Positions 46,572 through 55,892 of a stretch of DNA of 64,000 nucleotides are shown piece after piece; within the stretch, counting starts at the first letter, position 1, and each line of letters starts with the position of its first letter. The DNA is taken from positions 131,998,714 to 132,062,713 of the forward strand of contig NC_073691.1 of assembly GCF_029784155.1 (NCBI RefSeq), written 5' to 3'. This DNA comes from Uranotaenia lowii. Its lineage: Eukaryota; Arthropoda; Insecta; Diptera; Culicidae. The notes below the pieces were generated by a model. That model had not been told where the DNA came from. It ran no database searches and saw only the letters and a program-made list of their open reading frames with translations. The position numbers and the translations under genes are program-made.

Positions 46572-47290
46572 TGAAAATCGGCAAAGACCCACGCGAAAAA
46601 AGGGAATGGCGATTGGAAACTTGGAACTGCCGATCTCTAAATTCTGTGGGCAGTATCCACGTGCTCTCCAACGAATAGAAGAGACAAAAATTAGACATCG
46701 TAGTGCTGCAGGATGTATGTATGCTGGAAGGGCTCCACGGTACGAACTTACCCAAATGGTCGTGCCATCTACCAGAGTTGCAGCAACACACACGAGCTTG
46801 AAACAGCTTTTATAGTGATGGGAAAGATGCAAAAGCGCGTGATCGGGTGGTGGCCGATCAACTCACGAATGTGCCGGTTGAGAATCAAGGGCCGGTTCTT
46901 CAACGTGCACAGCCCTCACCTCGGAAGTACCGGTGACAACAAAGACGAATTTTACGCTCAGCTGGAGCGTGAATACGACCGTTGCCCAAAACATGATATC
47001 AAGATCGTCATCGGGGATTTTAACGCTCAGGTCGGCCAGGAGGAGGAATTCAAACCGACAATTGGAAGGTTCAGTGCGCACCAGCTGACCAACGAAAACG
47101 GCCTCAGACTGATAGATTTCGCCGCCTCCAAACAAATGGCGTAGTACCTTTTTCCAGCACAGCCTCCCACACAAGTACACCTGGAGATTATCGTACCAAA
47201 CGCAATCAGAGATCGTCCACGTTTTGATAGACAGCCGGCACTTCTCGGACATCATCGACGTCTGATCCTGTCGAGGCGCCAACATCGAGT
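46572..47290 (+). pseudogene. LINE copy B endonuclease domain
   Basis: With frameshifts it shows WRLETWNCRSLNSVGSIHVL (the N motif) at ~46607, AFIVMGKMQKRVIGWWP at ~46805, GRFFNVHSPHLGSTGDNKDEF at ~46890, IVIGDFNAQVGQEEEF (GDFN motif) at ~47005, and DSRHFSDIIDV near 47230 before SDH-like sequence. This is an exonuclease/endonuclease/phosphatase fold that nicks target DNA. Frameshifts lie near 46680 and 47145. Confidence 0.75.
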
Positions 47291-47519
47291 CAGACCATTG
47301 TCGACCATGGGCGAAGATGCGTTCAAAACTTTCCGTAGTGAACAACACACGAAACCGGCGCCCACCTCGGTTAACACGTTCGTCGCCACGCTCATTTTGG
47401 TAGTTTTGCTAGCCGGGCCCAAAGAAATTTTCAGAGAGAGAAGGCAAAGAGGGAGAACTCCCATATTTGAAACGTGTGGCGAAGCTGAGCGGTAAACTCC
47501 AGTAAGAGAGCGTCACCTG

Positions 47520-49535
47520 CTTTTTGATGTGACGGGGCCCCCCAGGAAATACACCCGTCTGCCGAATATGGGTGACGTGGTGACGAACGTGTTAAATATC
47601 GCTCGACTGAAGCAACCTGAGGTCGCGGCAGACAACGCGCAATCGGTCGAAGCAGCGCTGCCGGCAGAGGGCGAGCTTGACGAAGCTTCCCTCGAGGACT
47701 GTTGGGATACCATCAAGACAGCCATCAACAGTGCTGCGGAGAACGTCATCGGTTATGTGGAGCGAACTCGAGGGAACGACAGGTTCGACGAGGAGTGTAG
47801 GAGGATGATGAACGAAGAAAACGCCACGCGGGCGGCAGTTGTCAAACAGGCACCCGTCGGAACGTGGAAAATCACCGACAGTGGAAGAGGCAGCGAGTCC
47901 GAATTTTCCGGGAGAAAAAGCGCCACCTGGAGGAGGAGGATCTTGAGAAGCTGAACCAGCTGCATCGTTCCCAAGGAACAAGAAAGTTCTATCAGAAACT
48001 CAACGCATCCCGCAAAGGTTTCGTACCGCAAGCCGAAATGTGCCGGGACAAGGATTGAGGCATCCTGACGGACAATCGTGAGATGATTAAAAATGTGGAA
48101 GCAGCACTTCGATGAACACCTGAACGGCGCACATGCATCAGACCGAAGCGGTGGGGGAAGCTACATCGCCGTCGTAGCCGACGACGAAGAGAAGCCACTC
48201 CCAACGATGAGTGATGTTAAGGAAGCCATTGGTCTAGGAATGATGACATCGCAGCTGAACTTGTCAGAATGAGCCCGGACAAGTTGGCCTATTTCTTACA
48301 TCGGTTGATGGTCCGGATCTGGAACACAGAACAGCTACCGGAGGAGTGGAAGGAGGGGGTAATATGCTTAAAAATAGGACTGTGAGAACTACCAAGCGAT
48401 CACTGTCCTCAGTGCCGCCTACAAAGTGCTGTTCCGAATCTTACTCCGCCGCCTAACGCCACAAGAAAATAGATTTGTGGGAAGTCATCAGGCCGGATTC
48501 ATGGAGGGACAGTCCACAAATGACCTCATCTTAACACTACGGCACATCCTTCATCGACTTCAAAGCCGCATACGACACTATCGACCGTAACGAGCTATGG
48601 AAAATCATGGACAAGAAAGGCTTTTCCGGAAAGCTGACCAAACTGATCAAGGCGACGGTGGATAGAACGCAGTGCTGTGTGCGGATTTCGGGTGAATTGT
48701 TGAATTCATTCGAATCGCACAACGGGCTTCGACAAGGCGATGATCTATCCTGCATGATGTTCAACGTGGCGCTAGAAGGTGTTATTCGACGAGCGGTGGG
48801 CGAAATGCGGGGTTCGATTTTCAACAGATCCAGTCATCTTATCTGCTTTGTCGACAACATTGATATAGTCGGCTCATCATCTGCGGCGGTGAAGGAGATC
48901 TATCGCATACTGAAACGCGAAACAAGAAGTATTGGGGTAATAATTAATACGTCCAAGACAATAACTGGCCTACGGATCCGAAACCGACCGAGCCCACTTG
49001 TCCAGTAATAACAAGGTCACGATCGACGGCGACGAGCTGGAGATAGTCGAAGACTTTGTCTATCTCGGCTGACCGCAGACAATGACACCAGCGGTGAGAT
49101 CCGGCGGTGAGTTATCAGCGGAAGTCGTGCCTACTATGGACTCTACAAGCAACTGCGATCGAGAAGGCTTAGCCCTCGCACGAAGTGCAACCTGTATATG
49201 ACGCTCATTAGACCGGTTGTTCTCTCCGGGCACGAGGCATGGATATTGCTAGAAGAGGACCTGCGTTCACTCGGAGTATTCGAGCGACGAGTGTAAAGAA
49301 CCGATCTATCTTTGGCGGCGTGCAGGAGAACCGAGTGTGAAGGCGAAGGATGAATCACGAAACCGCACGACTATAGGTGGTGAAAGCAGGAAGGAACGAG
49401 ACGAGCAGAGGCGCAACGAGCAAGGTAGTAAGATCAAGTGGAGCGTGATCTGGCGTATGTGGGATGCCTGAGAAGTTGGAGAACGGCTGCCATGGACCGA
49501 GTGAATTGGAGGAATATTGTTCATCAGGTTATGTC
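47520..49535 (+). pseudogene. LINE copy B linker and reverse transcriptase
   Basis: The linker has ALPAEGELDEASLEDCWDTIKTAINSAAENVIGYVERTR (~47660) and TRKFYQKLNASRKGFVPQAEMCRDKD before a stop at 48057. RT motifs follow: LPEEWKEGVI (~48330), YKVLFRILLRRL (~48420), GSHQAGFMEGQSTNDLI (~48480), then FIDFKAAYD in another frame, LNSFESHNGLRQGDDLSCMMFNVALEGVIRRAVGEMRGS (~48705-48820), and the palm CFVDNIDIVG, where FADD has become FVDN. The C-terminal part is fragmentary. It cannot be active. Confidence 0.8.
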
Positions 49536-55018: not shown

Positions 55019-55892
55019 ATACGCACTATGGGGCAGTTCCATACAATGAGGCGGCAAAAAGTATGATTAGGTGTTTCGGGCTATTTTGTTAATTTTGAAA
55101 ATTTTGTATGAAAATTACTATTTTAACTAACTTAAAATAAATACTAACAAAAATTTTGTGTAAATAACTTATAAAGTACGATGCTTGGTGTTATTTTTGA
55201 CCCTACTTTTTATTTCTTTTGGAAACCGGGTTTTGGACTAATTGATAATTAAATGATTAATAAGATCAAGAAATTTCATTAAACTAAAGAGAAAAATGTG
55301 TGAAATGATTGATAAATCATGAGAAACATTTTTTTTTGACAAACCAACATCAACTTTGTTGAATTTATACTCATTAATGGGTAAAAATTACCCATTTGCA
55401 TGATATTTTCAGCTTTATTTGACTATAACTCAAAAAACGGTGCTTTAAGGTGCCTGTAATCTCTGTCATTGTATTTTTAGGACTTTAAAATAGATCTTGA
55501 TAGTGAAAAGAGCATGGGGAAATGCGGGATTTTTTTGGCTAGGTTTTAAAGTTTTTGACTTTTGAAAAAAATAATTATTGACTCATTTTTATCATAGATC
55601 AATTAAGTGTGTAAAAATTTGGAATGGTTCAAATGATAGCTTTTAATATAAGCTTTGATATGATGTACTTGGAATTGAAAAATATGATGTGATTTAATTT
55701 TTTTCTTCATCATATAAATTTTTTAATTTTTCAAAGTCTGATGACTGTGGTGCGTTCAGTATTCAAGATAATGAGTTGAAAAACTTGGAATATCTTAGTT
55801 AAATATTAAGTTATTAACTAGTAAAAATAAAAAATCGATCCGATAAAGTTCAGTTTTTGACTTTTTGCCGCCTCAAACCCCATAGTGATACG
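55019..55892. repeat. Target-site duplication ATACG flanking the RSS-ended element
   Basis: ATACG occurs at 55019-55023 and again at 55888-55892, directly abutting the terminal CACTATG heptamers. Removing the insert and one ATACG restores the mariner terminal repeat seen in copy 1, which confirms the boundaries independently. Confidence 0.95.
55024..55887. mobile_element. Transib/RAG-like non-autonomous transposon with 12/23 signals
   Basis: Left end: heptamer CACTATG (55024-55030), 23-nt spacer (55031-55053), nonamer GCAAAAAGT (55054-55062). Right end, inverted: heptamer 55881-55887, 12-nt spacer (55869-55880), nonamer 55860-55868. Both heptamers and nonamers match exactly. The six bases before each nonamer (GAGGCG) and GGG after each heptamer also match. 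The V(D)J consensus is CACAGTG and ACAAAAACC with 12- or 23-nt spacers, and Transib elements have CAC-starting heptamers and 5-bp TSDs (known). The interior is AT-rich with no transposase, so it must move in trans. Transib assignment is inference. Confidence 0.85.

Follow-up and report, generated by a model that had tools for sequence, protein, structure and literature searches.

A Transib-type non-autonomous transposon with 23- and 12-nt end spacers, and related elements, in the genome of Uranotaenia lowii

Architecture of the element

The window analysed here, a stretch of 64,000 nt from the genome of Uranotaenia lowii, contains at 55,024–55,887 an element flanked on both sides by the 5-bp target site duplication (TSD) ATACG. 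An earlier note, made from the letters of the window, had read its ends as CACTATG-23-GCAAAAAGT and CACTATG-12-GCAAAAAGT with CACTATG at the very tips. This description matches the window sequence letter by letter, and the proposed TSD is present on both flanks, at 55,019–55,023 and 55,888–55,892. The individual features are as follows:

55019–55023, no strand: left TSD ATACG, identical to 55888–55892
55024–55030, plus strand: left heptamer CACTATG, the element tip, the same in all six compared elements (A–F)
55031–55053, plus strand: left spacer of 23 nt, shared by 37 of the 39 copies whose left end could be read
55054–55062, plus strand: left nonamer-like block GCAAAAAGT, the same in A, B and C
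55063–55859, no strand: A+T-rich interior, in which similarity to a transposase was not found (tblastn on the family consensus and L068–L071)
55860–55868, minus strand: right nonamer-like block GCAAAAAGT, with a better nonamer fit 8 nt further inward
55869–55880, minus strand: right spacer of 12 nt, shared by 33 of the 36 copies whose right end could be read
55881–55887, minus strand: right heptamer CACTATG, the element tip, as read in the window sequence
55888–55892, no strand: right TSD ATACG, as read in the window sequence

The left end (55,019–55,062) consists of ATACG followed by CACTATG, GGGCAGTTCCATACAATGAGGCG (23 nt) and GCAAAAAGT, and the right end, taken as the reverse complement of 55,860–55,892, of CACTATG, GGGTTTGAGGCG (12 nt) and GCAAAAAGT, with ATACG outside. 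The stretch from GGGG to GAGGCG measures 14 nt on the left versus 3 nt on the right, which bears out the 11-nt difference that had been placed before GAGGCG. Both tips have the CAC...TG form of the heptamer of a recombination signal sequence (RSS), as does the tip CACAGTG of a related family described below.

The consensus signals of V(D)J recombination carry the heptamer CACAGTG and the nonamer ACAAAAACC; CACTATG agrees with the former at 5/7 letters and GCAAAAAGT with the latter at 6/9. The boundary of the nonamer-like block was chosen by the reader who made the earlier note. On the family consensus, GCAAAAAGT at 23 is the best nonamer register of the long end when spacers of 5–35 nt are scanned. 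At the short end of the same consensus, TCAAAAACT at spacer 20 scores 7/9, above GCAAAAAGT at 12 (6/9), and the 12/23 reading therefore rests on the block that is common to both ends. Because this shared block is used for both, the difference of 11 nt holds wherever its boundary is drawn.

Scanning the window for CACNNTG followed after precisely 12 or 23 nt by NCAAAAA gives two matches, each at an end of this element; in 60 dinucleotide shuffles of the window the mean is 0.28 and the maximum 2. Convergent 12/23 ends bounded by matching 5-bp TSDs are present once in the window and in 0/60 further shuffles. The copies elsewhere in the genome establish the element as a transposon and rule out a chance arrangement. 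Four Transib proteins compared by tblastn with the family consensus and with the related elements L068–L071 yielded no match better than E 0.5; the interior is represented in this comparison by the consensus, from which the window copy differs by 4.8%. Elsewhere in the window, at 46,713–49,008, broken open reading frames (ORFs) resemble, by eye, the remnants of a non-LTR endonuclease and reverse transcriptase.

Genomic copies and conservation of the ends

A search of the genome (1,077,602,043 bases in 2,009 contigs) with the element returned 1,053 first-look candidates, 40 of which were scored; all 40 places were fetched and their spacers measured by script. The consensus of these family-A copies is 885 bp long, with a median copy divergence of 3.25%, compared with 4.8% for the window copy. 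Left and right spacers are 23/12 in 30 of the 40, the asymmetric pair that is known, plus or minus 1, from some Transib elements. The remaining ten divide into five in which an end was not found (four 23/not found, one not found/12) and five with an indel (three 23/11, one 30/12, one 22/12). In two of the three 23/11 copies the missing base falls within the A run of the nonamer, the spacer being intact. One copy, L044 (C1:25,045,029), has a 23-end with seven extra bases, CATGGGG, that echo its own TSD CATGG, giving a scored spacer of 30.

Identical 5-bp TSDs flank 33 of the 35 two-ended copies. The other two, L039 and L045, have a single TSD mismatch and, as their flanks are shared, represent one duplicated locus; another pair of copies also has common flanks, so that the 40 fetched copies correspond to 38 independent loci. 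A tip reading CACTA, as this one does, is characteristic of the CMC superfamily, whose TSDs measure 2–4 bp. An element of this CACTA/Chapaev type, RSS-like merely through its CACTA tip, would fit the tip lettering, but membership was rejected on the TSD length of 5 bp, seen in 33/35 two-ended copies, and related ends start with CACAGTG and flank a Transib transposase, which together make such an origin highly improbable. TSDs of a length other than 5 bp, which the earlier note had named as evidence against a Transib, were not encountered among these copies, and 5-bp TSDs are those given for RAG, Transib and RAGL elements in the accessible text of PMC7204232. Among the 33 identical TSDs, the first base is C in 25 and the last is G in 28, which amounts to the G+C-biased target described for Transib and RAG in the available part of PMC8289069, though the middle of the TSD is A/T-rich; base 2 is A in 23 and base 4 is T or C in 28.

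The exact end signal CACTATGGGN{0,30}GGCGGCAAAAAGT matches the genome 483 times (254 + 229) and its reversed control 0 times. Among the 100 of these 483 ends that were listed, which cover C1 and the start of C2 and overlap in part with the 40 fetched copies, the spacer is 12 in 50, 23 in 43 and another length in seven (11 twice, 22 twice, 25, 30 and 31). These 100 ends form 31 convergent pairs less than 10 kb apart, of which 27 are 12/23, two 11/23, one 12/22 and one 12/30; the other 38 ends have no exactly matching partner. A long end is joined to a short one in 31/31 of the listed pairs, with no same-kind pair among them. Variable spacers lacking any pairing, which the earlier note had named as a refutation, are not what these copies show: the spacers are 23/12 in 30/40 fetched copies, and a long end meets a short one in 31/31 listed pairs.

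The window copy belongs to subfamily A (885 bp). Four further elements were read as one copy each, namely B (L070, 1,056 bp, TSD CATTG), C (L068, 1,668 bp, TSD CGTTG) and two rearranged relatives of A, termed D (L069, 1,473 bp, TSD CATCG) and E (L071, 1,208 bp, TSD agreeing at 4/5). Subfamily A aligns with C at 67% over 543 bp and with B at 77% over 176 bp, in each case plus the other tip. Among these three subfamilies (A, B and C), 41 bp at the left end and 29 bp at the right are nearly invariant and the remainder aligns in part, at 67–83%. Heptamer and nonamer are identical at both ends; the 23-nt spacer keeps 20–22/23 letters and the 12-nt spacer 11–12/12. Directly inside the left nonamer, identity drops to 9–13/21. 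It drops less inside the right nonamer, to 21–24/32 and then 29–34/40, and at this interior edge the subfamilies are still 66–85% alike over 70 bp. Within family A, variability at the left end is 0.025 for the heptamer, 0.027 for the spacer and 0.006 for the nonamer, against 0.038 for the interior, and the corresponding right-end values are 0.044, 0.039 and 0.036. Since variability at the right end is about that of the interior, and identity just inside it is high, an end stands out clearly from the interior on the left only; the case for constraint is accordingly clear for the 23-end and weaker for the 12-end. Family A and its subfamilies, with their conserved spacer letters, differ in this respect from V(D)J signals, whose spacers are described as highly variable in the accessible text of PMC8355894.

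Transib transposases and a second asymmetric family

The Pfam RAG1 profile PF12940 has 12 weak matches genome-wide, none of which reaches the curated cut-off. The protein of one of these matches PDB 6pqn at E 2.1e-69, an entry that we take to be the HzTransib transposase (PDB title: DNA-mediated transposase). When this 6pqn-like protein was itself searched in the genome, at least 103 matching stretches were obtained (94 of 395 candidates scored). The 12 PF12940 loci were rejected as a source of 12/23 ends, five of them (including L022) having TSD-flanked ends that are symmetric and the remaining loci yielding no end pair.

In the 31 CACTATG pairs obtained from the 100 of 483 ends listed, no transposase was found between the ends, and none of the 22 transposase stretches on C1 lies, by eye, within 100 kb of a CACTATG end among those listed. 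The sole listed pair more than 1.7 kb apart belongs to a copy into which a retrotransposon has inserted. L067 (C1:204,728,026–204,732,960, 4,935 bp) was rejected as an autonomous partner, being a family-A copy with the TSD CGTGG and a nested non-LTR retrotransposon; the latter contains endonuclease/reverse-transcriptase-like ORFs of 957 and 380 aa, their function judged by eye. The flanks of ten transposase loci were scanned for ends over 1.3–1.6 kb upstream and 2 kb downstream, with a gap of ~0.5 kb after the match. This placed C3:116175034 between 12/22 ends and C2:65806484 between symmetric ends; at the other eight loci, ends were not found in the flanks read.

The 12/22 ends delimit L092 (C3:116,173,936–116,176,759, 2,824 bp, TSD TGTGG), in which the transposase is preceded by CACAGTG-12-GACAAAAGT and followed by CACAGTG-22-GACAAAAGT. 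The reading frame of this transposase is broken into pieces, which match 6pqn at E 2e-60 (chain residues 250–468) and 2.5e-19 (residues 9–141), and no claim of activity is made for it; PF12940 has no match in the three L092 pieces. The N-terminal Transib piece (L092:1520–1936, minus strand) has a weak match to Pfam DUF1280 (E 0.0011, below cut-off), which perhaps reflects an unrecognised relation or chance. A second transposase-bearing copy, at C2:311,279,313–311,282,905 (TSD CGACG), has ends identical to those of L092 at 59/60 and 60/60 positions and encloses a transposase match with stops, as seen in the genome search match.

The end pattern of this second family, CACAGTGCGGTGN{0,30}GGACAAAAGT, matches the genome 127 times and the reversed control 0 times, and among the 100 of 127 ends listed all pairs (40/40) are 12/22. 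Of these 40 pairs, 33 measure 1,075–1,137 bp or are shorter-by-deletion forms near that size, and six exceed 2.4 kb. By best nonamer register (ACAAAAGTN) the ends of L092 read 13/23, the long end being tied with 10 and 32; its 12-end, like that of family A, has a second nonamer fit at spacer 20. L093 (C1:7,646,768–7,650,015), a family-2 element of 3,248 bp with the TSD CGATG, carries cargo in which no transposase is detectable. It was rejected as an autonomous element, tblastn with four Transib proteins being empty up to E 1 and no ORF exceeding 123 aa.

The 12-end of family A agrees with that of L092 at 32/46 positions and with that of L093 at 30/46, compared with 15–20/46 for four symmetric-element ends used as a control. 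Outside heptamer and nonamer the agreement is 20/30, where 20,000 shuffles average 7.9 and never exceed 18. By this comparison of sequences, the 12-ends of family A and of the L092 family are homologous. For the long ends, compared after one base of the A end, chosen for best fit, was dropped, agreement with family A is 28/45 for L092 and 24/45 for L093 (symmetric controls 17–22/46), a modest resemblance only. Of the autonomous copy that the earlier note proposed to look for, none was found between the listed CACTATG ends; a Transib transposase is present in the 12/22 family with its homologous 12-end. This enzyme is RAG1-like and not, as might have argued against the proposed kinship, an unrelated transposase.

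Where the ends of Transib transposase loci are readable they are mostly symmetric, and they fall into four sets. In L029 and L031 (TSD CAGTG in both) the nonamer fits best at 23, tied with 7, whilst L023 and L026 (TSDs CATTG and CAATG) have no clear nonamer, the best being at 25 in 3/4 ends; the tips of these two sets are related. L022 (TSD CGTCG) has a nonamer at 22, with an equal fit at 11 on the left end that makes an asymmetric reading possible, and C2:65806484 (TSD TGTCA) a weak one at 23. The inverted ends of L029 and L031 are very long, with 89–90 of the first 90 bp identical.

Class, proposed mechanism and pairing of the ends

The 5-bp TSDs (33/35), the constant long/short pairing and the kindred transposase-bearing 12/22 family uphold the original suggestion of a Transib-type non-autonomous element. 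With a probability of roughly 0.9, we assign the window element to the RAG1-related Transib superfamily, as a non-autonomous cut-and-paste transposon presumably served in trans by a RAG1-like DDE transposase; it would thus be kin to the transposons from which the antibody-gene recombinase arose. Its binding, synapsis and cleavage chemistry, and the enzyme that moves family A, we infer by analogy with HzTransib, which cuts by a hairpin mechanism (accessible text of PMC6941560), and with the RAG literature. A transposase supplied in trans would bind each end through its CACTATG heptamer and its A-rich nonamer-like block and pair the short end with the long one. It would then nick 5′ of CAC, cut each end via a hairpin on the flank, and join the resulting blunt ends to CANYG-like targets with a stagger of 5 bp, the source of the 5-bp duplications. 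The inner block would sit about one helical turn closer to the tip at one end (12 versus 23 nt), and as the difference in length approximates one turn, both blocks would, relative to the cut site, face the same side of the helix. The short end is perhaps a usual 22–23 end shortened by one turn. That two families with homologous 12-ends both keep a long/short pair suggests that this enzyme lineage uses or tolerates the asymmetry. Several observations weigh against the overall reading: the lack of a transposase in the listed CACTATG pairs, RAG1 profile matches that fall below cut-off in the genome and are absent from the L092 pieces, a right end as variable as the interior, the better nonamer fit at spacer 20 of the 12-end, the modest agreement of the long ends, the presence of symmetric-ended elements, and a second family whose 12/22 spacers become 13/23 in the best nonamer register.

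Descent alone predicts a constant arrangement, since end pairing is inherited within a family. The asymmetry could accordingly be a neutral quirk, in which a Transib transposase able to use any end founded families with one shortened end and no 12/23-type rule applies. Such an origin has close to an even chance of being correct. Symmetric-ended Transib elements live in the same genome, most Transib families have symmetric terminal inverted repeats (TIRs) according to the available part of PMC8289069, and the right end of family A is as variable as its interior; moreover, the homology of the 12-ends means that one founder may explain both families. A neutral origin is less readily reconciled with the retention of both spacer lengths across subfamilies with diverged interiors, or with the recurrence of a long/short pair in two families that are unlike in heptamer and spacer sequence. 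The length differences in these families, 11 and 10, are both near one helical turn, and there are 0 same-kind pairs among the 71 pairs listed (31 + 40).

Alternatively, the enzyme may obey a 12/23-type, or one-turn, rule by which only or mainly long/short pairs would be synapsed, without RAG2. Constant long/short pairing in two families and the conservation of the ends, including their spacers, across subfamilies are consistent with such a rule, and the amphioxus ProtoRAG favours its asymmetric 27/31 pair in the accessible text of PMC8289069. A pairing rule is nevertheless a tentative proposal with the odds somewhat against it. Few founders may account for the pairing, a founder with one shortened end leaving the same picture as a rule. 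In RAG the restriction depends on RAG2 (available text of PMC8355894), and Transib elements hold just a single RAG1-like gene (available text of PMC7204232). Furthermore, the nonamer of the 12-end at spacer 12 is not its best fit.

The stronger statement, that a RAG2-less Transib lineage in this genome follows a pairing rule of one helical turn (12/23 or 12/22), is rather unlikely. It draws on two families that are unlike in heptamer and spacers and have remained long/short through hundreds of insertions. If true, a 12/23-type rule could exist in a transposase before or without RAG2; the source of the 12/23 rule is still an open question in work on how V(D)J recombination originated. The genome offers a numerous 12/23 family, a kindred 12/22 family with two transposase-bearing copies and symmetric elements alongside, a set on which a preference of a RAG2-less transposase for asymmetric ends could be tested directly.

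The list of 12/23-asymmetric Transib elements, taken by PMC8355894 from its reference 8, presumably goes back to Kapitonov and Jurka in 2005. A figure legend in PMC8355894, in the part of that paper available, names five with 12/23-asymmetric TIRs, plus or minus 1, namely Drosophila Transib5 and Anopheles gambiae Transib2, N1, N2 and N3, in agreement with the statement in the earlier note that at least one such pair was known. These 12/23 Transibs being already in print, family A adds to a known kind and is not the first. The same text ties the 12/23 rule to RAG2 and notes a few 12/23-ended Transibs. The An. gambiae elements and D. melanogaster Transib5, as described, resemble family A in being Transibs with a heptamer-like tip, a nonamer-like block and spacers of ~12 and ~23; An. 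gambiae TransibN1–N3 are presumably non-autonomous like family A, to judge from the letter N. Family A itself is not shown in the accessible parts of PMC8355894, PMC11844651, PMC7204232, PMC4411706, PMC8289069 and PMC6941560, and a repeat-library entry for it is possible. The family numbers, the kindred 12/22 family with transposase copies and the symmetric elements as natural controls are useful additions.

HzTransib of Helicoverpa zea (PDB 6pqn and five further entries) is matched by the L092 transposase at E 2e-60 and shares the CAC tip and the 5-bp TSD of the superfamily. Unlike the long/short ends of family A, its TIRs form a symmetric pair that bears little or no resemblance to the nonamer in the accessible account of PMC8289069. 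The 12-RSS and 23-RSS of V(D)J recombination are alike in having a heptamer-like tip and an A-rich block at 12 and 23 in nonamer register; family A differs from them in consisting of transposon ends, with conserved spacer letters, the heptamer CACTATG and the nonamer-like GCAAAAAGT. Amphioxus ProtoRAG shares the RAG1-like enzyme class, a 5-bp TSD, asymmetric ends and a preferred pairing (available parts of PMC8289069 and PMC7204232). Its 27/31 ends differ by 4 nt rather than by one helical turn, it carries RAG2L, and it has no distinctive nonamer according to the accessible text of PMC8355894.

A further observation concerns L022, one of the symmetric elements. Its left end (L022:2982–3019), which begins with CACATAG, contains two equal A-rich nonamer fits, at spacers of 11 and 22 and so one helical turn apart, and this double block is perhaps a trace of how short and long registers arise.
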